From NCBI RefSeq assembly GCF_029589435.1, contig NZ_JARRAG010000004.1, forward strand, positions 1 to 64,000: a stretch of DNA of 64,000 nucleotides, in the 5' to 3' direction. Under the pieces are notes generated by a model, which worked only from the letters and a program-made list of their open reading frames with translations, did not search any database and was not told where the DNA came from. Source of the stretch: Paludisphaera mucosa. GTDB taxonomy: Bacteria; Planctomycetota; Planctomycetia; Isosphaerales; Isosphaeraceae. The position numbers and the translations under genes are program-made. Each line of letters opens with the position of its first letter. Position 1 is the first letter of the stretch. Below, piece by piece: positions 1 to 64,000 of the stretch.

Positions 1-3000
1 GGCATCGGCGCCGTCGGAGCGTCGCGGCCGCCGAGGAGGTTGCGGTAGAACCGGGTCATCAGCAGGGCGGTGGCGTCGTCGTCGACCTTCCAGAGGCTCA
101 GGACCAGACTCCGCGCCCCTCTGACCAGGAGCGGCTGGGCGAAGCCGAGCAACCCCTCCCCGCCCGCCGCCTTGCCGAGCCCGCTCTCGCAGGCCGAGAG
201 GACCACGAGGTCGGCGTCGAGTTCCCAGGTCCGCGCGATCTGCTCGGCGGTGATCTCTCCGTCGGACTCGAAGGCCTCGGGATCATCAGGGCGGTCGGGG
301 TCGGGGGCAAGGATCAGGGCGGTGCGGAAGGCCGAGCGGGGATCGGTGCGACCGTGGGCGGCCAGGTGGAGGAATCGGAAAGCCTTCAGCCGGCCGGAGC
401 GGGCCATCGCCTGCACGGTCGACTCGCGGGCCTGGTCGCCCAGGATGGTGGTGGCCTCGGGGAACAGCGCAGCGATCGCGGCGACCTCGCGGCGAGTGCC
501 CGGCAGGCGGACCTGGGGTTCGCCCCGCGTCCGGAGCACCTCGGCGGCCGCCCTCCGAGCCGCCACGGCCTGAGCGGCAGGCCTGTCGTCGAGCTGCACC
601 CCGAGAGGCCCGGCGGAGAGCTCGATGGAGCGCACGTCGCCGTCCCTCCAAACCCGCGCCATCGGCCGCCCCGGGCCGCCATCGGGATCGACCAGCTTGA
701 TATCGGCCGGCGAATTCAGGGGCGTCCCGTTATACTCGAGGATCACGTCGCCGGCGCGGAGGCCGTGGAGGTCCGCATTGGCATCGGGCGTGACCGCCAC
801 CACCGCCAACCCGTGGGCAGGCGACGCCGCGGCCTTCGCGATGTGGGAATTTACCTCGGGGTATGCCGGATCGCCCAGCGCCAGCAGTGTTGCGGGCCGG
901 CCCGGAGGCCGGGCCTTCGCGGCCAGGTGGGCGAGCATCGAGGCGGAGGGGGCGTAGCCGACCGACGGTGCCGATGTCGCGTCGCGGTTCCGGGCCGCGA
1001 AGAGCGACTCGACCGGCACTCCAGCCAGCCCCGGCGACGTGAGGACGATCACACGCAGCACCCCCCGGAGGTGAGGTTCGATTGGGGCCAGTCGCTGACG
1101 CGCCACCGCCTCGGCCAGCGGACGCCAGGCCTCATCGGAGGCTGGCGACGCCAGCGCCTCGCGGAGCCGGCCAGCGAGCCCATCGTCCTCGTCGGTCCAC
1201 GCCCCGCCCTGGCCGCCGCCGGGGATCGGCACCCAGGCAGGTTCGCCCGCTTGTCGCACCACGCAGGCCCAGTGCCGTCGGCCGACGTCGACCCAACCGA
1301 CCAGGGCCGTCGATCCGTTGAGCATGGCACGTACGACCTCGAGCGACGCCGGCCGGCCGGCGAGCGGCCCATACTTCGCCTCGAACCGCGTCTGCATCTC
1401 CAGCGACCGACGTCGGACATCGCTGCCCTCACGGCGAAGCGCCTCCAGCGTCCGCTCGACCTCTTCCGGTGGCAGGGAGCGGGCCAGCAGGCGGCCGATC
1501 CGGTCATCGACGGACTGGGCCCGAGCGAGCAATTCAGCCTCCTCCCGCCGCTCTTCGGGGGTCAACGGTCGGGCGGCGCGGCCCGCTACCTCGTCGAGTA
1601 GGGCCCGGCCCAGCCCGCGCTCCCAGCGGTCCCAGGCTTCGGCCGGCCGGCCGGCAGAGGCCAGCAGCGAACAGAGGAGAGGGGCGGGGGCGTTGAGGTG
1701 GTTCGTCGTAGCGTCCTCAAGTCCGCGGTGGCTTGGACGTCGGGTCCGGCCTGCCTCGGCCGCCTCCAAGGCCCGGATCGCCTCTTCGGGGCGGTCGAGG
1801 TCGGCGAGGATCGCCCCGAGTGTGCGATAACTCGACGCCGCGTAGGGGTGGCTCTCCCCTAGGACCGCGACGCGGATGGCCACGGCCTTACGGATCATCT
1901 CCTCGGCGCCGGCCGAGTCGCCGCGCTCGTGCAGCACCCAGGCGAGGGCGGTGTAGGTCTGGGTGGTGAGGGGATGGCGCTCGCCCAGGGCGGCGAGGCG
2001 GATGGCCAGTGCCTTGCGGTACATCGCCTCGGCGCCGGCCGAGTCGCCGCGCTCGTGCAGCACCCAGGCGAGGTCGGAGTCGCTGAGCGCGATGTCAGGG
2101 TGGCGTTCGCCCAGGGCGGCGAGGCGTATGGCCAGGCCCTTGCGGATGGTCTCCTCGGCGCCGGCCAGGTTTCCGCCTGCCGCGAGCGCGCAGCCGAGTA
2201 TGTTGTAACTGGCGGCGGTGTCGGAGTGGCTCTCTCCCACGGTCGCGAGCCAGATGGCGAGTCCACGGCGGCTCATCGCCTCGGCAACGACCAGATCGCC
2301 ACGGGCCTGCAACACCACGGAAAGGTTGTCGTAGAATATGGCGGTGTCGACGTGGCGCTCGCCGAGGGCCGCGAGCTGGATGGCCAGGGCCTTGCGTATC
2401 ATCGCCTCGGCGCCCGCCAGATCCCCACGCACTCGTAGCAGCCTGCCGAGGATGTTGTAGCTCGTGGCCGTGTCGGGGTGGTTCTCGCCCAGGGCCGCGC
2501 GCCGGACCTCCAGGACCTTCCGGCCGATCGTCTCGGCGCCGGCCAGGTCCCCCCGCTCGTGCAGCAGAGCGGCGAGGTTGCTGTAGGTTATGGAGGTGTC
2601 GGGGTGGCGCTCGCCGAGGGCCGCGAGTCGGATGTCCAGGGCCTTGCGGTGCATCGCCTCGGCGCCGTCCAGGTCCCCGCGGACGCGCAGCACCTCTGCG
2701 AGGTTATTGTAGCTCTCGGCGACGTCGGGATGGCGCTCGCCCAGGGCCGCGAGTCGGATGGACAGGCCCTTGCGGTGCGTCGCGTCGGAACCCTGCGGAT
2801 CGCCACGGGCGAGCAACACGGCGGCGATGTTGTTGTAGCTCGTGGCGGTGTCGGGGTGTCGCTCGCCCAGCCACCGCCTGCAGGCCTCCAGGACGCTGCG
2901 GAAGCCGTCCAGGGCCTCTTCATATCGCGCCTCCTCGTAGGCTGCACCGGCCGCCTCATCGGCGGCCGGGACGTCGGCCATGGCCGCTCGGCCTTCGGGG

Positions 3001-42663: not shown

Positions 42664-44973
42664 ATGTCCGATTTCAACCTGAGCGAACTCCTGCCCTTCT
42701 ATCTCGACGAGACCGACGAGAACATCGCGGCCCTCAACGACGCCCTCCTGCGCCTGGAGCAAGACCCGGCCGACGCCAAGGCGCTGGCCGAGGCCTTCCG
42801 GATGTTCCACAGCATCAAGGGCGCGTCGGTCGTCATGGGCTTCGAGTCGGTCAACCGGCTGACCCACGTCCTGGAGAGCCTGTTCGACCAGCTCCGGACC
42901 AAGAAGCGCGAGCTGGACCGGCCGGTGCTCGACCTGACCTTCCGCTGCCTGGACGAGCTTCGCGACTATCACCGCGAGCTGCGCTCCGAAGGCCGTAGCG
43001 ATCGCGACCTCGCCGGCCTCACCCGCGAGGTCGATGCGGCCCTCACGACCCCCTCGACGGCCGTCCCCAGGCCCCCCGCCCCGGCCCCGGAACCCTCGCC
43101 TCAGCCCGTCCCCGCCGTCGCGCCTGCGGCCCCGACCGTCATCGCGCTGGCCGACGACGTGCAGGGGACGGTCCGCCTGGTCGTGGAGTTCGAGCCCGGG
43201 CTGCAACTGGCCGACATGAAGGCCCGCCTCGTCGTCGAGCGGCTCGGTGCGCGGGGAAGGATCACCGTTACGGATCCGCCGCTGGAGAAGCTCGACGAGG
43301 TCGAGTCCCTGGCGCGAATCACCATCTGGATGACGACCTCCGGCGACCTGGAAGGGCTTCGAACCCTGGCCGACGTCGACGGCGTGCTGCGAGTCACGGT
43401 CGACCCCGTCGAGGCCGAGGTCGACATGACGGCGCCCGCGTCCGAGCCGGCCGCCGAGGCCGCGCCGGTCGTCGCGGCGGAGCCCGTCGAAGCCCCGACC
43501 GCTCCTGCAGCCCCGTCTGCTCCGCAACTTGCCGGCAAGCGGGCGAAGGTGGCCGAGACGATACGGGTCGACAGCGACCGGCTCGACAACCTGATGAACC
43601 TGGCCGGAGAGCTGGTGATCAACAAGGCCCGTTTCATCGACGTCGCCAAAGGGCTCGACGAGGTGCTGCGAGGCTCCGACGCCCGCAGTCTGGCCGTGGA
43701 GACCGAAGAACGGCTGGATACGATCATGCGGGGGCTCGACCACGTGGTCGGCGGCGCGGGCGCCCGCGCCGGCGACGGGGCCGTCGATCGCTGGGCGGGG
43801 CACGTCCGCCGGCTCCGCGAAGACTTCCGCGCGATCCGCGGCGAGCTGGACCGCCTCCGCCAGGGTCGCGAGCGGCTCAAGACGCTGGGCGACGCCATCC
43901 ACAGCCTGGGCCGCGTGGCCGACGGCCTTCAGAAGGGCGTCCTCGAAACCCGGATGGTGCCGATCGGCCCCCTCTTCGAGCGGTTCCGGCGCGTGATCCG
44001 CGACCTGAGCCTGGCGTCCGGCAAGGAGGTCGCGCTCAGGATCGCCGGCGAGAAGACCGAGCTCGACAAGCGGATGATCGACGAGCTGAGCGACCCGCTC
44101 ATCCACATGGTCCGCAACTCGGTCGACCACGGACTGGAGCCGCCGGACGTCCGCGAGGCCGGCGGCAAGCCCAGGGCCGGGACCGTGGCGTTGCAGGCCT
44201 CGCACCGGGGCAACAGCGTGGTCATCACCGTGGGCGACGACGGCCGGGGGATCGACTGCGAGCGCATCCGCCGCAAGATCGTCTCCAAGGGGCTCGTCGG
44301 GCGTGACGAGGCCGCCGAGATGACCGACCGCGAGCTGGTGCCTTTCATCTGGCACCCCGGCCTGAGCACCGCCGAAACCGTCACCGAGATCTCCGGGCGC
44401 GGCGTGGGGATGGACATCGTCAAGGATCGGATCGACAACCTCAGCGGCAGCGTCGACGTCCGGACGTCGCTCGGCCAGGGGACCGTCTTCACGATCCGCC
44501 TGCCGCTCACGCTGGCCATCATGTCGAGCCTGCTGGTGCGGATCTACGACGAGGTCTACGCCCTGCCCCTCGACCACATCGACGAGATCGTCGAGATCCG
44601 CGGCGATCGGATCGCTTCGGTGCAGGGCCGGCCGACGATCGAGATCCGGGGCAAGTTCCTGGCCCTCGCGACGCTGGGCGACCTGTTCCACTGGGGGGGC
44701 CGCCCCCATCCCTCGGCCCCCGAGCCCTCGCGGTTCGGCGACCATTCCGAGTCGTACCACGTCGTCATCGTCCAGGACGGCGAGACCACGATCGGCCTGG
44801 TCGTCGACCAGCTCATCGGCATGCAGGAGGTCGTCTTGAAGTCGTTGGAGCGGAACTTCCGGCCCGTGCCCGGCCTCTCGGGCGCCAGCATCCTGGGCGA
44901 CGGCCGCGTCTCCCTGATCCTCGACGTCGACGCCCTGGTCGACGCCGCCGCCCGCCGCCGAGGCCGCGCATGA
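42664..44973 (+). CDS. cheA: Chemotaxis histidine kinase CheA
   Basis: 769 residues, five-domain layout. P1/HPt with the phospho-accepting His49 in FRMFHSIKGASVVMGF; a proline-rich linker; a P2-like alpha/beta segment at about 160-260; P3 dimerisation (DRLDNLMNLAGELVINKAR) at about 300-420; P4 ATPase with N box HMVRNSVDHGLE, G1 GDDGRGID and G2 GRGVGMDIVKDRI; and a C-terminal CheW-like P5 domain (EVYALPLDHIDEIVEIRGD). It has no fused receiver domain, matching the separate cheY gene. Its stop overlaps the cheC start (ATGA). Confidence 0.96.
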   Translation: MSDFNLSELLPFYLDETDENIAALNDALLRLEQDPADAKALAEAFRMFHSIKGASVVMGFESVNRLTHVLESLFDQLRTKKRELDRPVLDLTFRCLDELRDYHRELRSEGRSDRDLAGLTREVDAALTTPSTAVPRPPAPAPEPSPQPVPAVAPAAPTVIALADDVQGTVRLVVEFEPGLQLADMKARLVVERLGARGRITVTDPPLEKLDEVESLARITIWMTTSGDLEGLRTLADVDGVLRVTVDPVEAEVDMTAPASEPAAEAAPVVAAEPVEAPTAPAAPSAPQLAGKRAKVAETIRVDSDRLDNLMNLAGELVINKARFIDVAKGLDEVLRGSDARSLAVETEERLDTIMRGLDHVVGGAGARAGDGAVDRWAGHVRRLREDFRAIRGELDRLRQGRERLKTLGDAIHSLGRVADGLQKGVLETRMVPIGPLFERFRRVIRDLSLASGKEVALRIAGEKTELDKRMIDELSDPLIHMVRNSVDHGLEPPDVREAGGKPRAGTVALQASHRGNSVVITVGDDGRGIDCERIRRKIVSKGLVGRDEAAEMTDRELVPFIWHPGLSTAETVTEISGRGVGMDIVKDRIDNLSGSVDVRTSLGQGTVFTIRLPLTLAIMSSLLVRIYDEVYALPLDHIDEIVEIRGDRIASVQGRPTIEIRGKFLALATLGDLFHWGGRPHPSAPEPSRFGDHSESYHVVIVQDGETTIGLVVDQLIGMQEVVLKSLERNFRPVPGLSGASILGDGRVSLILDVDALVDAAARRRGRA

Positions 44974-45629
44974 CCATCCTGACCGAGGTGCAACGTCGGC
45001 TGCTTCGAACGATCCTCGAACGCGGGGCCGAGGGGGCGTCGCAGGCGCTTTCGCGATGGCTGGGCGAGGAGGTCCGGCTCGTCCTGGGCGAGGTGGAACA
45101 GATCGAGCTGGAAGAGGCGGCGGAAGCACTCGGGCCTCCCGAGAGCCTGGTGGCCGCCTGCCGGATGGGCCTGGTCGGGCCGATCGGCGGGTCGCTCCTC
45201 CTGTGCTTCGAGGACCACGCGGGGCTGGCCCTGGTCGACCTGCTCCTGCACCAGCCCGTCGGGACGACGACGGAATGGGGCGAGGTCGAGCAGTCGGCGG
45301 CGATGGAGACGACCAACATCGTCGGCTGCGCATATCTCAACGCCCTGGCGTCGCATCTGCCGTCGAGCCTGGGCGCCGGCTCTTCGGCGATGTCCACGGC
45401 CGGCGAGCTGGCGCCCACGCCCCCGGTCTTCTTCCACGAGTTCGCCGGCAGCCTGCTGCAGTTCGCCCTGATGGACCAGGCCCAGGAGCTGGACCGGGTC
45501 CTGCTTGTGCGGACGAACTTCGAGCTGGGCGGCGACGGCGCCGGGCTCGACTGGACCCTGCTCTTCGTCCCCGACGCGCCTTCGCTCGCGGCGATGGCCT
45601 CGGCCCTCACCGACGGGAACGCTTCTTGA
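44970..45629 (+). CDS. cheC: CheC-type CheY-P phosphatase
   Basis: 219 residues; ATG at 44970 overlaps the cheA stop. The CheC/CheX signature ExxN is present: SAAMETTNIVGCAYLNALASHL, in the S-x3-E-x2-N arrangement. Only one clear active-site copy is seen; the second site found in many CheC proteins appears degenerate. CheC dephosphorylates CheY-P and binds CheD, which enhances its activity. Its position between cheA and cheD supports this partnership. Confidence 0.85.
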   Translation: MTILTEVQRRLLRTILERGAEGASQALSRWLGEEVRLVLGEVEQIELEEAAEALGPPESLVAACRMGLVGPIGGSLLLCFEDHAGLALVDLLLHQPVGTTTEWGEVEQSAAMETTNIVGCAYLNALASHLPSSLGAGSSAMSTAGELAPTPPVFFHEFAGSLLQFALMDQAQELDRVLLVRTNFELGGDGAGLDWTLLFVPDAPSLAAMASALTDGNAS

Positions 45630-45649
45630 CCTCGCGGAGGCCGGTCGAC

Positions 45650-46162
45650 GTGGCCCAGGAATCGGACGCTTCCAACGTGGTCTCGGTGGCGATCGGCCGG
45701 TGGGCGGTGGCCGCCTCGCCGTCGCGGCTGCGCACCTTGCTGGGCTCGTGCGTGGGGGTGGTCCTCCACGACCGTGCCGCTAAGCTGGGCGGGCTCGCGC
45801 ACGTCGTCCTGCCCGACTCGCGGGGGGCCGTCGAGCACCCGGGCAAGTACGCGGACACGGCCATCCCCGCGCTGATCGCCGAGCTGGAACAGGCGATGCG
45901 GGGCAAGGCGGCCGGCCGGCTGGTCGCCAAGCTGGCCGGCGGCGCCAGCATGTTCCAGGTCGGCGCGACGTCGACGACGGCCCCGGCCGCGAAGAATATC
46001 GGCCGGATGAATCAGGAGGCCGTCGAGGCGATCCTCGCCAGCCTTCGAATCCCGATCCTGGGCCGCGACCTGGGCGGCGACGGCGGTCGCAACCTGATGT
46101 TCGACCCCGCCAGCGGCCGGGTCCAGATCCGCAGCCCCGGCGGCGGCGAGCGCGAGATCTAG
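45650..46162 (+). CDS. cheD: Chemoreceptor glutamine deamidase CheD
   Basis: 170 residues from the GTG at 45650, preceded by GGAGG at 45636-45640; a TTG at 45626 overlapping the cheC TGA is the alternative. CheD core: LRTLLGSCVGVVLHDRAAKLGGLAHVVLP provides the catalytic Cys and His, followed by GGASMFQVG and GRMNQEAVEAILASLRIPILG. CheD converts specific receptor glutamines to glutamates and shuttles between receptors and CheC-CheY-P. Together with CheR, CheB and CheC it gives the operon a Bacillus/Thermotoga-like adaptation set. Confidence 0.92.
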   Translation: MAQESDASNVVSVAIGRWAVAASPSRLRTLLGSCVGVVLHDRAAKLGGLAHVVLPDSRGAVEHPGKYADTAIPALIAELEQAMRGKAAGRLVAKLAGGASMFQVGATSTTAPAAKNIGRMNQEAVEAILASLRIPILGRDLGGDGGRNLMFDPASGRVQIRSPGGGEREI

Positions 46163-46216
46163 GCCGGCGGTGGTAGACTGGAACGCGGGACTGGCCCGAG
46201 GCTTTGGAGGTCGTGG

Positions 46217-46585
46217 ATGAAACGGCTGCTGGTGGTGGATGACGCCCTGTTCATGCGGCGGCTGATCGGCACGGTCGCACGCGAGGCGGGCTGGGAGGTC
46301 GCGGGCGAGGCGGCCGACGGCTCGCAGGCGGTGGCCATGTATCCGGAGCTGCGCCCCGACCTCGTGACGATGGACCTGGTCATGCCCGTGATGGGGGGGC
46401 TCGAGGCCCTCAAGAAGATCCGCGAGCTGGATCCCGAGGCGAAGGTCGTCGTCATCACGGCCGTCGACCAGAAGCAGTCGGTGATGGACGCGATCCGCCT
46501 GGGCGCGATCGACTTCGTCGTGAAGCCGTTCGACCGGGCCCGCGTGACGGCCCTGCTCCGCAAGGCGGCCGTCGCCTCTTCGTGA
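46217..46585 (+). CDS. cheY: Chemotaxis response regulator CheY
   Basis: 122 residues, a single receiver domain. Acid pocket DDA at the N terminus (LLVVDDALFMRRL), phospho-acceptor Asp near residue 53 (DLVTMDLVMPVMGG), Thr in VVITAVD and Lys in FVVKPF are all present. There is no output domain. In other bacteria CheY-P acts on the flagellar switch or type IV pilus machinery; neither is encoded nearby, so the target is unknown. Confidence 0.94.
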   Translation: MKRLLVVDDALFMRRLIGTVAREAGWEVAGEAADGSQAVAMYPELRPDLVTMDLVMPVMGGLEALKKIRELDPEAKVVVITAVDQKQSVMDAIRLGAIDFVVKPFDRARVTALLRKAAVASS

Positions 46586-46622
46586 ACCGCCCGTTTGAAC
46601 GGCGGCAAGGACCGCGCCAGCC

Positions 46623-47714
46623 ATGTCCGATGATCGCCCCGACGACCCGTCCTCACGCCGCATCCGAGCCCTGGTCGTCGACGACTCCGCCCTGATGCGC
46701 CGGCTGCTCACGGACGTCCTCAACGGGTCGGGCCGGATCGAGGTCGTGGGCGTGGCGCGCGACGGCCGCGAGGCGGTCGCGCAGGTGGCGAAGCTCCAGC
46801 CCGACGTCGTCACGCTGGACATCGAGATGCCCGAGGTCTCCGGCCTCGACGCCCTGCCCGCCATCCTGGCCATCCGCGAAGTCCCCATCGTCATGGTCAG
46901 CGCCCTGACGCAGGAGGGGGCCGACGTGACCCTCAAGGCCCTGGAGCTGGGCGCGGTCGACTTCCACCCCAAGCCGACCCGGAACCAGCTGGCCGAGATG
47001 CGCGCCGAGGGCGAGCTGCTCGTCGCCAAGGTCCTCGGCGCCGCCCAGGGACGCGTGTTCCGTCCGCGGAAGTCCGCCCCGGCGTCCCCCCCGCGGTCGA
47101 CCCCGCCGTCCCTGGCGGGCGAGACGCTCGTCGGTTGCGTGGCGATCGGCATCTCCACGGGAGGCCCCCAGGCCCTCGCGCGGGTCATCCCCCTGCTCCG
47201 GCCGCCGACGCCGCCGATCCTGATCGTCCAGCACATGCCGGCCCAGTTCACCGGGGTGTTCGCCGACCGTCTCAACCGGACGTCGACCCTGGAAGTCAAG
47301 GAGGCTGCCGAGGGCGACCTGGCGACTCCCAACCGGGTCCTCGTCGCCCCCGGCGGACGTCATCTCACGCTGTCGGGCCGCCCTCCCCTCGCCCGCGCGG
47401 TGCTGTCCTCGCCCGAGGATCCTCCGGTCAGCGGCCACAGGCCGTCGGTCGACGTCCTCTTCCGCTCGGTCGCCCGCATGTACCACGGCGCGGCCGTCGG
47501 GATCCTGATGACCGGCATGGGTCGGGACGGAGTCGAGGGCTGCCGGGCCATCCTCGACGCGGGCGGCCTGACCCTGGGCCAGGACGAGGCCACGTCCGTC
47601 GTCTACGGCATGAACAAGGCCGCTTTCCTCGAAGGCGTCGTCAAGCATCAGTTCGGCCTCGACGACCTCCCCACGCTCCTCCATAGCCTCTCCTCGCGGG
47701 GCCACGGCGCGTAA
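46623..47714 (+). CDS. cheB: Chemoreceptor methylesterase/deamidase CheB
   Basis: 363 residues. A receiver at about 14-135 (LVVDDSALMRRLL; VVTLDIEMPEVSGLDALP) and a CheB methylesterase domain at about 165-355. The catalytic triad context is present: Ser in AIGISTGGPQAL, His in LIVQHMPAQFTGVFADRL, and Asp in GILMTGMGRDGVEGC. CheB removes methyl groups from receptors when phosphorylated by CheA. It ends the operon; the iteron array begins 42 bp later. Confidence 0.96.
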   Translation: MSDDRPDDPSSRRIRALVVDDSALMRRLLTDVLNGSGRIEVVGVARDGREAVAQVAKLQPDVVTLDIEMPEVSGLDALPAILAIREVPIVMVSALTQEGADVTLKALELGAVDFHPKPTRNQLAEMRAEGELLVAKVLGAAQGRVFRPRKSAPASPPRSTPPSLAGETLVGCVAIGISTGGPQALARVIPLLRPPTPPILIVQHMPAQFTGVFADRLNRTSTLEVKEAAEGDLATPNRVLVAPGGRHLTLSGRPPLARAVLSSPEDPPVSGHRPSVDVLFRSVARMYHGAAVGILMTGMGRDGVEGCRAILDAGGLTLGQDEATSVVYGMNKAAFLEGVVKHQFGLDDLPTLLHSLSSRGHGA

Positions 47715-47755
47715 CGCAGGACCGACCGAGGCCTACCATAGGCGGGCGGATCGAC

Positions 47756-47777
47756 CGATGGCCCGGGGAGGAATTTC
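47756..47777 (+). repeat. Outlying iteron copy
   Basis: CGATGGCCC followed by GGGGAGGAATTTC matches the iteron consensus in sequence, orientation and length. It lies 95 bp before the tandem array, out of its 22-bp phase. Confidence 0.8.
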
Positions 47778-47872
47778 CCCCGCCGCCGCCCCCCCCACGT
47801 GGCACGTCCGATCCAACCAGGCTCCTGGGCGAATCTGGCCACCTGCACTTCCGATCGATAGCCCAATTCGGG

Positions 47873-48004
47873 CGATATCCCGGGGAGGAACCGCCGATTA
47901 CACGGGGAGGAACCACCGATAGCCCGGGGAGGAACCACCGATTACGCGGGGAGGAACCACCGATAGCCCGGGGAGGAACCACCGATTACGCGGGGAGGAA
48001 GTTC
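47873..48004 (+). repeat. Six tandem 22-bp iterons
   Basis: Units start at 47873, 47895, 47917, 47939, 47961 and 47983 without spacers. All share the core CGGGGAGGAA; the five after the first alternate between prefix CGATTACRC and prefix CGATAGCCC. The first unit is CGATATCCC and the last ends in GTTC instead of CCAC. The head-to-tail phase (about two helical turns) is as expected for initiator binding. Confidence 0.9.
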
Positions 48005-48073
48005 TACGTAAACCGTTATGGCGTCGCACTCTTTTTTTTGCTAACAGTATAACCTAGTAACCATGTGAAACCT

Positions 48074-48102
48074 GCAACAACAAGCGGGGGCGGTGTTGTT
48101 GC
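48074..48102. promoter_or_regulatory. Hairpin/operator dyad before rep
   Basis: GCAACAACA (48074-48082) and TGTTGTTGC (48094-48102) form a perfect 9-bp inverted repeat with an 11-nt G-rich centre, ending 18 bp before the rep ATG. It could be a Rep autorepression site or a 5' leader hairpin that sequesters translation signals. Confidence 0.55.
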
Positions 48103-48120
48103 TCTCCTTGGGGGCTGGGG

Positions 48121-49590
48121 ATGGAACGACCTCAGGATGCAGAGGGCTTGCGAGCGACCCCGGAGTCGGTCCCGGACGAGCGGTTGTTCGGCAAGGACGA
48201 GATGAACCTGGCCGAATTTCCGATCACGCTCCTCGCCGATCGCAAGGACGTCAACCTGATCATCCGCGAGGTCCCGGTCCGCGACGAGTCGACGGGCCTG
48301 ATGATCCTCCGCAAGGTGACCGTGACCGGCTCCGACCTGTACGGCCTCCCCTCATCGCAGGACAACCTGATCCTCCTGGGCCTGATCTACCTGACGAAGC
48401 GGGCGAACAACTTCCGGGAGCGGCGGGTCGGGTTCAGCCGCAGCGAGGTGATCAAGGTGCTGGGCTGGGCCGACTCGGGCCAGTCGTACGCCCGGATCGA
48501 GCTGTCGCTCAAGCGCTGGGCGAACGTCTTCGTGCTCTACGAGAACGCCTGGTGGGACAAGCCCAGGCAGACGTATTCCTCGAAGGGCTTCGGGATCATC
48601 GACGACTTCGAGATCAACGACGGCTCGGCGTCCCGCCAGGCGACCCTGCTCAGGTCGAACATCGCCTGGAACGAGATCTTCTTCCAGAGCCTGGAGGCGG
48701 GGTTCGTCCGCACCATCGACCTGAAGCTGTTGCTGCGCCTGCGTCACCCCAGCTCGCAGCAGATGTACCGGTTCCTGGGCAAGCATTTCTACCACTCGCC
48801 TTCGCTCACGCTGGACTTGCGGACCTTCGCTTGCGAGCACGTCGGGCTTGACCGCGGCTACAAGGACAACGGCAAGCTCAAGGAGAAGCTCCAGCCGGCG
48901 ATCGACGAGCTGGAGCAGATCGGCTTCCTGGAGCCGATGGAGAAGGAGCGGCGGTACGCGAAGGTCGGCCCCAAGCAGTGGACCATCACCCTGAGGCGTC
49001 GGGCCGATTTGGAGCTGGTCGAGGAGACCCTCGACGCGGGGTCTCCCCTGGCCGGCCCGGAGCCGACCGAGCAGGAGAAGGGGCTCGTCGCCCGGGGCGT
49101 CACGGCGACGGTCGCCGCCGAGCTGGCGCTCAACCATCCGGCCGACAGCATCCAGGGCAAGATCGAGGTGTTCGACTGGCTGGTCGAGCGCCGGGACAAG
49201 CGAGTCTCGAAGAACCCCGCGGGCTACCTCGCGGAGTCCATCCGCAAGGACTACACGGCGCCCCGCGGCTTCGAGTCCGAGGCCCAGCGGCGCGAGCGGC
49301 TCGCGGCCCTCGACGAGCAGCGCCGCAAGGTCGAGGACGCCCGGCGACGGGTCGCCGAGGAACAGCGGGCGAAGGAGCAGGCGGACCAGGCCCGGATCCA
49401 GGGCCACTGGGCGAAGCTCTCCGAGGCCGAGCGAACTCGCCTGCAGGACGACGCCCTCGCTTCGCCCGGCCTCGCGTTCCTGGTCAAACGCTACCGTGCC
49501 CAGGCCGACCCCGAGCTGGCGGCCCGCACGCTCAAGATGATCCTCGACGGCCACATCCTCGGCTTGCTCGACGACCGGCCGAGGCGATGA
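48121..49590 (+). CDS. Replication initiator protein A (RPA family)
   Basis: 489 residues from the ATG at 48121. The N-terminal two-thirds (about 25-290) is an RPA-family plasmid initiator: MNLAEFPITLLADRKDVNLI, LPSSQDNLILLGLIYLTKRA, FSRSEVIKVLGWADSGQSYA, and SLKRWANVFVLYENAWWDKP, a tandem winged-helix type protein that binds iterons. Residues 395-440 form a charged coiled coil (EEQRAKEQADQARIQ) which may mediate dimerisation. It starts directly downstream of the iteron array. This identifies the replicon as plasmid-like. No partner primase or helicase gene adjoins it, so host factors would be needed. Confidence 0.92.
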   Translation: MERPQDAEGLRATPESVPDERLFGKDEMNLAEFPITLLADRKDVNLIIREVPVRDESTGLMILRKVTVTGSDLYGLPSSQDNLILLGLIYLTKRANNFRERRVGFSRSEVIKVLGWADSGQSYARIELSLKRWANVFVLYENAWWDKPRQTYSSKGFGIIDDFEINDGSASRQATLLRSNIAWNEIFFQSLEAGFVRTIDLKLLLRLRHPSSQQMYRFLGKHFYHSPSLTLDLRTFACEHVGLDRGYKDNGKLKEKLQPAIDELEQIGFLEPMEKERRYAKVGPKQWTITLRRRADLELVEETLDAGSPLAGPEPTEQEKGLVARGVTATVAAELALNHPADSIQGKIEVFDWLVERRDKRVSKNPAGYLAESIRKDYTAPRGFESEAQRRERLAALDEQRRKVEDARRRVAEEQRAKEQADQARIQGHWAKLSEAERTRLQDDALASPGLAFLVKRYRAQADPELAARTLKMILDGHILGLLDDRPRR

Positions 49591-62040: not shown

Positions 62041-62985
62041 TCAGGCCGCCAGCTCGGCCTGGGCGGCGAGTTGTTCGAGGGCCTCGCGGAGCGCGGCGGC
62101 CAGCAGGGCGTCGTCGACCCCCTTGCGGTTCTCGACGGTGATCTTGCAGCCGGCGGCGCGAAGGGTCCGGGTGGTCGGCGCCTTGTCGCCGCGGCGGGCC
62201 CCCCTGCCCTTGCCGACCGTGGAAGGCGTCCGGCGTGCGGCGACGCGGACGGCCTCGACGGCCTCGGCGCGGCTGAGGCCCTCGCTGACGACCCGCTCAG
62301 CGAGGTCGCGCTGGATGGCGGGGTCCTGGATCTTGCCGATCTCGTAGGCGGTCCCCGGCGGCAGCGTCCCCTCCTCGACCCGGCCCTGGACGGGCTCGGG
62401 CAGGTGCAGCAGCGCCAACGCCCGCACGACGGTCGGCTGCGCCACGCCGAGGGCCTTGGCCGTCTGGTTGCCGGACCAGCCGTTGCGATCCATCAGGGCG
62501 CGGAACGCCTTCGCCTGCTCGATGGGCCGCAGGTCTTCGCGCAGGCAATTCTCGATCAATTGCAGCTCCCGCAGCTCGCCCTCGTCGATCGGTCCCTCCG
62601 AGACCACGCACGAGAGCGAGGCCAGGCCGGCGAGACCCGCCGCGCGCCAGCGGCGTTCGCCGCAGACGACGACGTAGCGATCCTGCGCCTCATCCCAGCG
62701 CACACGGATGGGCTGGAGCTGCCCTCGCGTCTTGAGCGATTCGGCGAGCCGGGCGAGGGCGTCGGGCTCGAACTCCTCGCGGGGCTGGTCGGGGTCGGGC
62801 ACGATCTTGTCGACCGGGATCTCGACGGCGTTCTTGCTCTTGGCCACCCCCTGCCAGCGGCTGGGGACGCTGGAGGTCTTGGCTTCCATCCGGGCCTCGA
62901 ACGAGCCCATCTTGGGCCGCCCGGCCCCCATGCTCTCGGCGATGTTGGCGCCGCCGGCCTTCAGCAGTTCGTCCAGCTTTCCCAT
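62041..62985 (-). CDS. parB: Chromosome/plasmid partition protein ParB
   Basis: 314 residues from the ATG at 62985, one base after the parA stop. The ParB/Spo0J nuclease-like domain starts EIPVDKIVPDPDQPREEFEP and includes CGERRWRAAGLAGL (the CTP-binding GERR motif) and ELQLIENCLREDLRPIEQAKA. An HTH follows (WSGNQTAKALGVAQPTVVRA). The C-terminal dimer region is at about 285-314. ParB loads on parS sites and works with ParA to segregate DNA. Candidate binding palindromes lie upstream of parA. Confidence 0.94.
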   Translation of the reverse strand: MGKLDELLKAGGANIAESMGAGRPKMGSFEARMEAKTSSVPSRWQGVAKSKNAVEIPVDKIVPDPDQPREEFEPDALARLAESLKTRGQLQPIRVRWDEAQDRYVVVCGERRWRAAGLAGLASLSCVVSEGPIDEGELRELQLIENCLREDLRPIEQAKAFRALMDRNGWSGNQTAKALGVAQPTVVRALALLHLPEPVQGRVEEGTLPPGTAYEIGKIQDPAIQRDLAERVVSEGLSRAEAVEAVRVAARRTPSTVGKGRGARRGDKAPTTRTLRAAGCKITVENRKGVDDALLAAALREALEQLAAQAELAA

Positions 62986-62986
62986 G

Positions 62987-63802
62987 TCAAGCGGCCTCCC
63001 CGGCGGCGCGCGGCGTCTGGGCCGCTGCCAGTCTCGCGAAAATCTCCTCGCCGAGCGCCTTCATGACCTTGGTCGCCGCCCCCTTGGGCTTGTACTGCGC
63101 GACCGGCTGGCGCTGGACGATGGCTTCCTTGTAGTCGGTCGAGATCGGCACCGTGGTCGTGAACACGGCGTCGCCGTAGTGGGTCCGCAAGAGCTGCTCG
63201 AACCCCTTGTGGACCGAGAGCCGGGGGTTCGACATGGTCACCAGAAAACCCAGCAGGAGCAGGTCGGGGTTGGGCCCGGCGACGACGCGGTCGATGGACT
63301 CCTGGACGTCGGCGATGCCCTGGGCCCCGAAGTCCTCGGGCTGGAGCGGGACGAGGAGGGCGTCGCTCGCGACGAGTGAGGTCCACGACGCCAGGTGAAG
63401 GTTCGGCGGGCAGTCGATCATGACGACGTCGTAGCGGTCGGCGACGTCGGCCAGGAAGTCCCGGAGCGCCGTCTGGAGCGGCCAGTCGACGAGATGGGGG
63501 TCGGGGACGTTGAAGCTGCCGGCGGCCCGGCTGCCGGCGAGGAGGTCGATCCCCGGCACGTTCGTCGCCCGCACGACCTGGTCGGCCATGGCTTCCTGCT
63601 GATAGACGGCGGCGATCGTCTCGCCCGGGTCGAGCGCCCGCGTGGCCTGGGGCCCGAGGAAGCCCTGCGTGAGGCTCGCCTGGGGGTCGTTGTCGACCAG
63701 CAGCACCCTCCTGCCCCCCAGCGCCAGGGCCCCCGCCAGGTGATAGCAGGTCGAGGTCTTGCCGACCCCCCCCTTCTGATTCAACGCCGTGATGATCGCC
63801 AT
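62987..63802 (-). CDS. parA: Partition ATPase ParA
   Basis: 271 residues from the ATG at 63802, with GGAGG about nine bases upstream. Deviant Walker A motif KGGVGKTS (ITALNQKGGVGKTSTCYHLA), Walker A' and switch region (LLVDNDPQASLTQGFLG), and Walker B-like DVVMIDCPPNLHL are intact. Short N terminus without an HTH, so a type Ib-like/Soj-like ParA. It forms an operon with parB. ParA moves ParB-bound DNA; together with the rep gene this marks the replicon as self-segregating. Confidence 0.95.
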   Translation of the reverse strand: MAIITALNQKGGVGKTSTCYHLAGALALGGRRVLLVDNDPQASLTQGFLGPQATRALDPGETIAAVYQQEAMADQVVRATNVPGIDLLAGSRAAGSFNVPDPHLVDWPLQTALRDFLADVADRYDVVMIDCPPNLHLASWTSLVASDALLVPLQPEDFGAQGIADVQESIDRVVAGPNPDLLLLGFLVTMSNPRLSVHKGFEQLLRTHYGDAVFTTTVPISTDYKEAIVQRQPVAQYKPKGAATKVMKALGEEIFARLAAAQTPRAAGEAA

Positions 63803-63847
63803 GCGTCCCCCCCTCCGGAATCCGATTCTCCATGAGGTCATATCGGC

Positions 63848-63939
63848 CGGGGTATACCCCGCGTATAAGCCTTTCCCGCCCCGCCTCCTCGAGGGTCTGA
63901 AGCCCGCAACCACCGGGGCTATGCTCCGCGTATACCCCC
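63848..63939. promoter_or_regulatory. Palindromic repeats upstream of parA (candidate operator or parS)
   Basis: A perfect 14-bp palindrome CGGGGTATACCCCG lies at 63848-63861, followed by GCGTATAAGC. A related sequence, CTCCGCGTATACCCCC, recurs at 63924-63939, 70 bp further. The repeated core CGCGTATA and the GTATAC centre suggest several copies of one binding site. It lies 46-140 bp upstream of the parA start. The canonical Spo0J parS sequence was not seen. Confidence 0.6.
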
Positions 63940-64000
63940 CTGCCTCGCCAGCCTCTTGCCTCGTTTGCAAGTTTGGGTTCGATCCGCGGAAATTTTTTTC

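Follow-up and report, generated by a model that had tools for sequence, protein, structure and literature searches.

An iteron origin and RPA-family initiator on a very probable planctomycete plasmid, with a leader dyad that recurs before related rep genes

From the analysis of a 64,000-nucleotide stretch of planctomycete DNA (the window, positions 1-64000 of the 120,636-bp contig C4), we assign positions 47756-49590 with high confidence to an iteron plasmid of ~120.6 kb, as its replication origin together with the gene for its initiator. The segment carries, in this order, a set of iterons, an AT-rich stretch, a perfect 9-bp dyad and a gene of the RPA family, an arrangement described by a first-pass annotation and recovered here in full. 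The iteron core CGATNNNNCGGGGAGGAA is present on the forward strand as seven exact copies, starting at 47756, 47873, 47895, 47917, 47939, 47961 and 47983. The first is solitary (core at 47756-47773, 117 bp before the array), and the other six form a tandem array with a 22-bp period (47873-48004, the last core ending at 48000). When up to two mismatches are allowed, nine matches are found in the window, as compared with 1.68 +/- 1.22 in 100 shuffles, and the array at 47873 is the only place of the tandem pattern across the same genome. Six direct repeats at 22 bp and one more beside rep agree with the iteron theta plasmids, whose direct repeats measure ~17-22 bp (iteron sizes as given in the review PMC4980987).

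The iterons adjoin an AT-rich stretch at 48001-48074 (forward strand; T-run at 48032-48039), whose GC content of 41% stands against 64.7 to 74.0% in 2-kb sections of the window; the 60-mer at 48024 belongs to the top 0.13% of the window for AT. By its position this stretch is presumed to be the unwinding element. Within it, TATAAC at 48048-48053 (forward strand) is the presumed -10 element of the rep promoter, judged by eye and by its recurrence in relatives; a sigma-70 consensus scan of the rep leader returned no match. Among the 62 leaders compared here (the DNA upstream of 62 Rep genes: five from the same genome, others from further members of the family, two from Gemmataceae and two from Bythopirellula), a relaxed form of the box CGTAAGTCNTTG follows the iterons in 30, a raw count with no shuffle null that includes one misplaced match. 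The pattern has no match in the C4 leader, where only a degenerate copy, CGTAAACCGTTA, is discernible by eye at 48007-48018 (forward strand). The E. coli-type DnaA box has the consensus TT(A/T)TNCACA, and no copy with up to one mismatch lies in 47700-48121; planctomycete boxes may differ, and the dnaA region itself contains one weak match to this consensus.

The rep gene (48121-49590, forward strand) encodes a protein of 489 aa that matches the Pfam profile RPA (PF10134) with E 2.9e-13 and 50.4 bits against a gathering cut-off of 27, which bears out its assignment to the RPA family. A structure model built from 31 sequences (pLDDT 84.3) predicts that residues 20-298 (within 20-300) adopt two winged-helix domains like those of RepE, RctB and pi, with Z 16.3 to RctB, Z 14.8-15.8 (3.1-3.5 A) to RepE54 and Z 14.5 to pi bound to iteron DNA. 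At the level of sequence, a search of the PDB with Rep gave no match up to E 10. For the last 175 residues (315-489; window 49063-49587) the model gives a helical domain at high confidence (pLDDT 95.3), in which a motif with the consensus KNPAGYLVxSIRxDY is conserved; no PDB fold match for this domain has E <= 0.001, and a DnaD-domain chain at E 9.3 was discarded as evidence. Taken together, the repeats, the AT-rich stretch, the dyad, the rep gene and the predicted fold support the reading of the segment as an iteron origin.

Between the presumed promoter and rep lies the dyad, GCAACAACA-N11-TGTTGTTGC, exact at 48074-48102 (forward strand) and common to several iteron types. The exact pattern has no chance match in 100 shuffles, and 2000 first-order simulations give P 0.0075 for a perfect inverted repeat of at least 9 bp at any place in 48001-48121. 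In its short form, CAACAAC-N(3-22)-GTTGTTG, the dyad occurs at three places in the same genome, all of them rep leaders (on contigs C4, C6 and C7), as against none for a backward control pattern. Across 45 genomes of the family it marks 36 distinct places (two overlapping listings in genome G019 taken as one), 22 of which are rep leaders, and the control marks 17, so that the surplus over chance comes close to the count of rep leaders. By position alone, 21 of the 36 directly precede a Rep, in one case (G040:C3) across contig ends. The 22nd is the leader of a Rep on G042:C40 (L126, 972-2775) that was found through the dyad: the protein resembles the group E type (49% identity to the Rep of C5), was missed by PF10134 at E 0.001, was matched by the C4 Rep only in its C-terminal part, and is accompanied by seven iterons of its own in 22-bp steps, one of them of 44. 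Four of the 14 remaining places were opened, over 2.4-3.5 kb each, and gave no Rep match. In the class as a whole at least 119 of 198 genomes match the short pattern, and many genomes also match the control.

Stems of >= 7 bp in which the 5' arm is A/C-rich occur in 41 of the 62 leaders, compared with 2.3% of shuffles, five of the 41 using other arms or places in our judgement; such a stem is absent from 21, including that of C5, and C3 has only 6 bp. Several variants keep the pairing (CAACAACC/GGTTGTTG, CACCAAC/GTTGGTG, CAGCAAC/GTTGCTG and CAACAACT/AGTTGTTG), the loop ranges from 3 to 62 nt across relatives, and the 5' arm lies at -43 to -224 from the rep start between groups, in leaders cut at the start codon. 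Covariation was scored on a selection of 37 leaders from the 62, taken for having a stem that could be recognised, seven of them through anchors typed by hand. The score of 0.142 exceeds the 0.073 +/- 0.011 of shuffles, none of 500 being as high, and also exceeds slides of 1-3 columns; owing to the CAA repeat, slides by 3 still pair 69-74% of the cells. There are 15 cells with a change on either side of the pair at once, versus 5.7. Counted as pairs the signal is not above shuffles (3 changed on both sides versus 2.7, 303 of 500 shuffles), further pair types are not clearly so (9 versus 7.2, 78 of 500), and in group F alone (four rows) all 28 cells are paired, with G-U included, at a level reached by 248 of 500 shuffles. 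In folding calculations the 43-nt stem-loop has z -2.19 (7 of 200 shuffles as stable) and the 84-nt leader is no more stable than shuffles (z -0.20). An intrinsic terminator or attenuator at the dyad was considered and rejected: there are 0 terminator-like sites, and the bases after the stem are pyrimidine-rich with no T-run in C4. No Rfam family matched the window at the gathering score.

What, then, might the dyad do? Stem changes that partly compensate each other and a loop of varying length favour a folded leader over a fixed operator, and we give about an even chance to the reading of the dyad as a stem-loop of the rep leader that acts as RNA. A somewhat unlikely alternative is a DNA operator at which a Rep dimer autorepresses rep, the arrangement of mini-F and pPS10. 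The dyad follows the presumed promoter and closely precedes rep, its perfect arms would suit a dimer, and the predicted Rep fold matches that of RepE, whose dimer has a known structure on its operator (2z9o, Z 8.7). However, autorepressed operators of the RepE/pPS10 type have arms related to the iterons and a fixed spacing, whereas the arms CAACAAC/GTTGTTG do not resemble the iterons and turn up again beside other iterons and other Reps; an arm distance of 3 to 62 nt would not be allowed for a dimer of fixed geometry, and some pairs are retained as G-U. Alternatively, the hairpin might form in single-stranded DNA and, instead of acting on rep expression, serve replication itself, as a site where the melted origin is primed or the helicase is loaded. 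The stem-loop does adjoin the presumed unwinding element where one is present, and its pairing is largely kept, but groups differ in how far it stands from the rep start, as described above, and we regard this reading as unlikely. The folded RNA leader would, in our interpretation, tune Rep expression in the same way on many such plasmids.

The same genome (8.21 Mb, 9 contigs) contains five related Reps, one each on C3, C4, C5, C6 and C7; PF10134 matches four of them and leaves the C5 Rep unmatched. Neither the first 20,000 of the 20,851 bp of C8 nor C9 had a match to 51 Reps. Contig G000:C9 (L040, 15.5 kb), with no match to 51 RPA-type Reps, has ORFs that look by eye like a phage primase and a tape-measure protein. 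A 12-mer recurs at least four times (up to two mismatches) in 57 of 60 leaders, a raw count with no null. The iterons were sorted into groups by eye and then checked with patterns, and the five replicons of this genome are each of a different type (C4 of type A, C3 of type B, C6 of type C, C7 of type D and C5 of type E). On a Rep tree of 51 rows (protein alone, some proteins partial, a quick method with long-branch warnings) all ten iteron groups with at least two rows each form one side of a branch, and the 18 iteron labels need 17 changes where 17 is the least possible. Iteron groups thus follow Rep clades, which argues that Rep and iterons change together. Rep copies of one clade, with upstream repeats, are located in chromosome-sized contigs of two genera (G040:C1 2004998-2006290 and G004:C1 3105983-3107263). 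A second, canonical RPA class (PF10134 E 1e-62 to 1e-97) lies in chromosome-sized contigs in G028:C1, G031:C1 and G004:C1 and on contigs of seven other family genomes.

No two replicons of the same iteron group were found together in the genomes compared. In the 12 genomes with at least two sorted replicons (38 replicons, leaving out chromosomal copies, the canonical RPA class and G042:C40), none of 46 within-genome pairs belongs to one group, where 5.9 are expected, and 0 of 20,000 shuffles reached zero; when group B, which all twelve genomes carry, is removed, the difference is not significant (0 versus 1.5, P 0.20). We tentatively propose that the RPA plasmids of planctomycetes have a modular origin. 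Iterons and Rep, specific to each plasmid, would provide its identity, while a common stem-loop in the rep leader (CAACAAC...GTTGTTG and its compensated variants), acting at the level of RNA and recognised either by the ribosome or by a single host factor, would control up to five co-resident plasmids with no incompatibility. We consider this possible, short of probable.

The iterons themselves come in subtypes, for which the first-pass annotation had suggested two Rep-binding modes or two affinities. In order, the variable letters are GGCCC (the outlier), ATCCC, TACAC, AGCCC, TACGC, AGCCC and TACGC. As the first tandem copy has the spacer ATCCC, alternation of the two named subtypes is confined to the last five copies. 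In favour of two modes, C4 and pPL62-3 alternate in the same phase, with different letters, and the eighth base switches between C and G in C4 (A in one copy), in pPL62-3 and in part of G029:C35. However, the half-sites CGAT and GGGGAGG are constant and do not alternate, the subtype differences being confined to the spacer between them. Moreover, two of the five group A replicons, C4 among the five, lack alternation: G032:C109 has five tandem copies that are all ATCCC, and pISOP01 has 11 copies in the 650 nt examined (7 ATTCC, 3 GTTCC, 1 ATCCT). In a third, G029:C35, a 44-bp unit is repeated exactly, C-type copies follow and the alternation stops. Two binding modes or affinities are therefore unsupported by these comparisons and improbable. 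The simplest reading is that the alternation is a trace of growth and homogenisation by a two-iteron unit of 44 bp, and the spacer letters may carry little selected meaning. Tandem Repeats Finder reports a period of 22 (86% matches) and scores a period of 44 better (96%).

The outlier lies 117 bp from the array in C4 and in pPL62-3 and 118 bp in G029:C35, and in these three replicons all seven iterons stand at nearly equal distances from the start codon. Gaps of similar size separate copies in other groups of the same genome (111 bp in C5, 116 in C6, 113 and 112 in C7), directly before the array in C6 alone. With its distance fixed at 117-118 bp, the outlier probably serves copy control as a place where the DNA loops or origins pair.

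The molecule is very likely a plasmid of a planctomycete bacterium, as had been claimed, and a circular one. A TPR-CHAT gene at 1-2981 (reverse strand) runs on past position 1 into the final bases of C4, so that an ORF of 1061 aa spans both ends, joined at about residue 994. The join falls within the CHAT domain of this ORF (residues 621-1059; 2.7e-54, profile 2-289 of 289), and a single CHAT gene that bridges the two ends is good evidence for a circle. The genome's one dnaA match is on C2 (5.27 Mb), separate from C4, and the closest named Reps among the matches listed, of pPL62-3 (81.6%) and pISOP01 (65.5%), belong to circular plasmids. No switch in GC skew is evident by eye at the origin. 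It is highly improbable that we are dealing with a piece of chromosome or an integrated element rather than a free plasmid: in relatives, related Reps do occur on contigs as large as a chromosome (G040:C1, 8.67 Mb, and G004:C1) and no terminal overlap was found between the ends of C4, but the CHAT gene joins these ends and related Reps stand on records deposited as circular plasmids. Directly upstream of the origin, at 42664-47714, the plasmid carries a chemosensory set comprising a CheA-type kinase, a CheD-domain protein and a CheB-type protein.

The ParAB pair proposed near the origin is borne out by domain matches ~12.5 kb downstream of rep. Both genes are on the reverse strand: parB at 62041-62985 (ParB_N 1.5e-23, HTH_ParB 5.3e-18) and parA at 62987-63970 (AAA_31 1e-34; start codon uncertain). 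A ParA ATPase with a ParB that contains a helix-turn-helix corresponds to a type I ParABS system. A chromosomal-type parS with up to three mismatches gave no match; plasmid parS sites may differ. Based on this anatomy, we envisage that Rep, with its two predicted winged-helix domains, contacts the conserved half-sites CGAT and GGGGAGG of the 22-bp iterons, that 48001-48074 then melts and that the helicase is loaded there. Iterons and Rep together would set which plasmid is copied, ParAB would secure partition, and theta replication at low copy number is to be expected from the kind of plasmid.

What are the consequences for work on planctomycetes? The presumed minimal unit, 47756-49590, offers a direct design for planctomycete vectors, in which the leader element would be one to include or to mutate. 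Iteron groups may predict which replicons can co-occupy a cell, and a rep control element common to otherwise compatible plasmids would bear on how five iteron plasmids coexist in one. If the modular-origin reading is true, the leader element is an unrecognised class of plasmid copy-control RNA.

The statement that planctomycete plasmid origins are poorly described is partly out of date. A 2024 plasmidome survey by Quinonero-Coronel et al. reportedly found that most planctomycete plasmids have an RPA Rep near a putative iteron origin together with type I partition; the combination of RPA and iterons on planctomycete plasmids has reportedly been published already. A literature search for Isosphaeraceae, plasmid and iteron found no match, and one for planctomycetes, plasmid and iteron gave matches that, by their titles and abstracts, concern PromA plasmids and Wolbachia. 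RPA and ParA were noted on Isosphaeraceae plasmids in 2017 (PMC5352709), in a text whose accessible portion contains the word 'iteron' 0 times. According to a 2025 methods paper (PMC11958385), planctomycete model strains are without a replicative plasmid and the elements for replication are only starting to be unveiled.

How does this origin compare with known systems? Like mini-F, R6K and V. cholerae chromosome 2, which share the RepE/pi/RctB fold, C4 combines two winged-helix domains, as predicted here, with tandem iterons and an adjacent AT-rich stretch. Unlike these, its Rep has an extra C-terminal helical domain and no sequence match in the PDB, no E. coli-type DnaA box was found and the dyad is unlike the iterons. 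Annotated RPA Reps are also encountered in Deinococcus, Rubrobacter and Acidobacteria, at 21.6-28.3% identity to the C4 Rep among the matches listed (40 of 55), with upstream repeats seen by eye in five of six leaders. An inverted repeat was found in two of eight outside-family leaders, a set that includes two planctomycete ones; the two are those of D. radiophilus and Rubrobacter (P 0.03, 100 shuffles, uncorrected), with other or reversed arms. The closest likenesses are within group A. The Rep of pISOP01 of Isosphaera pallida is 65.5% identical to that of C4 and is served by the same iteron half-sites, but the plasmid differs in its eleven copies without alternation and in a longer loop. Both pISOP01 and pPL62-3 of Planctomyces sp. 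SH-PL62 depart from C4 in the iteron spacer letters. In pPL62-3, whose Rep is 81.6% identical, the half-sites are again the same, the seven iterons occupy nearly the same positions (2 bp off), and the outlier distance and the dyad are those of C4.
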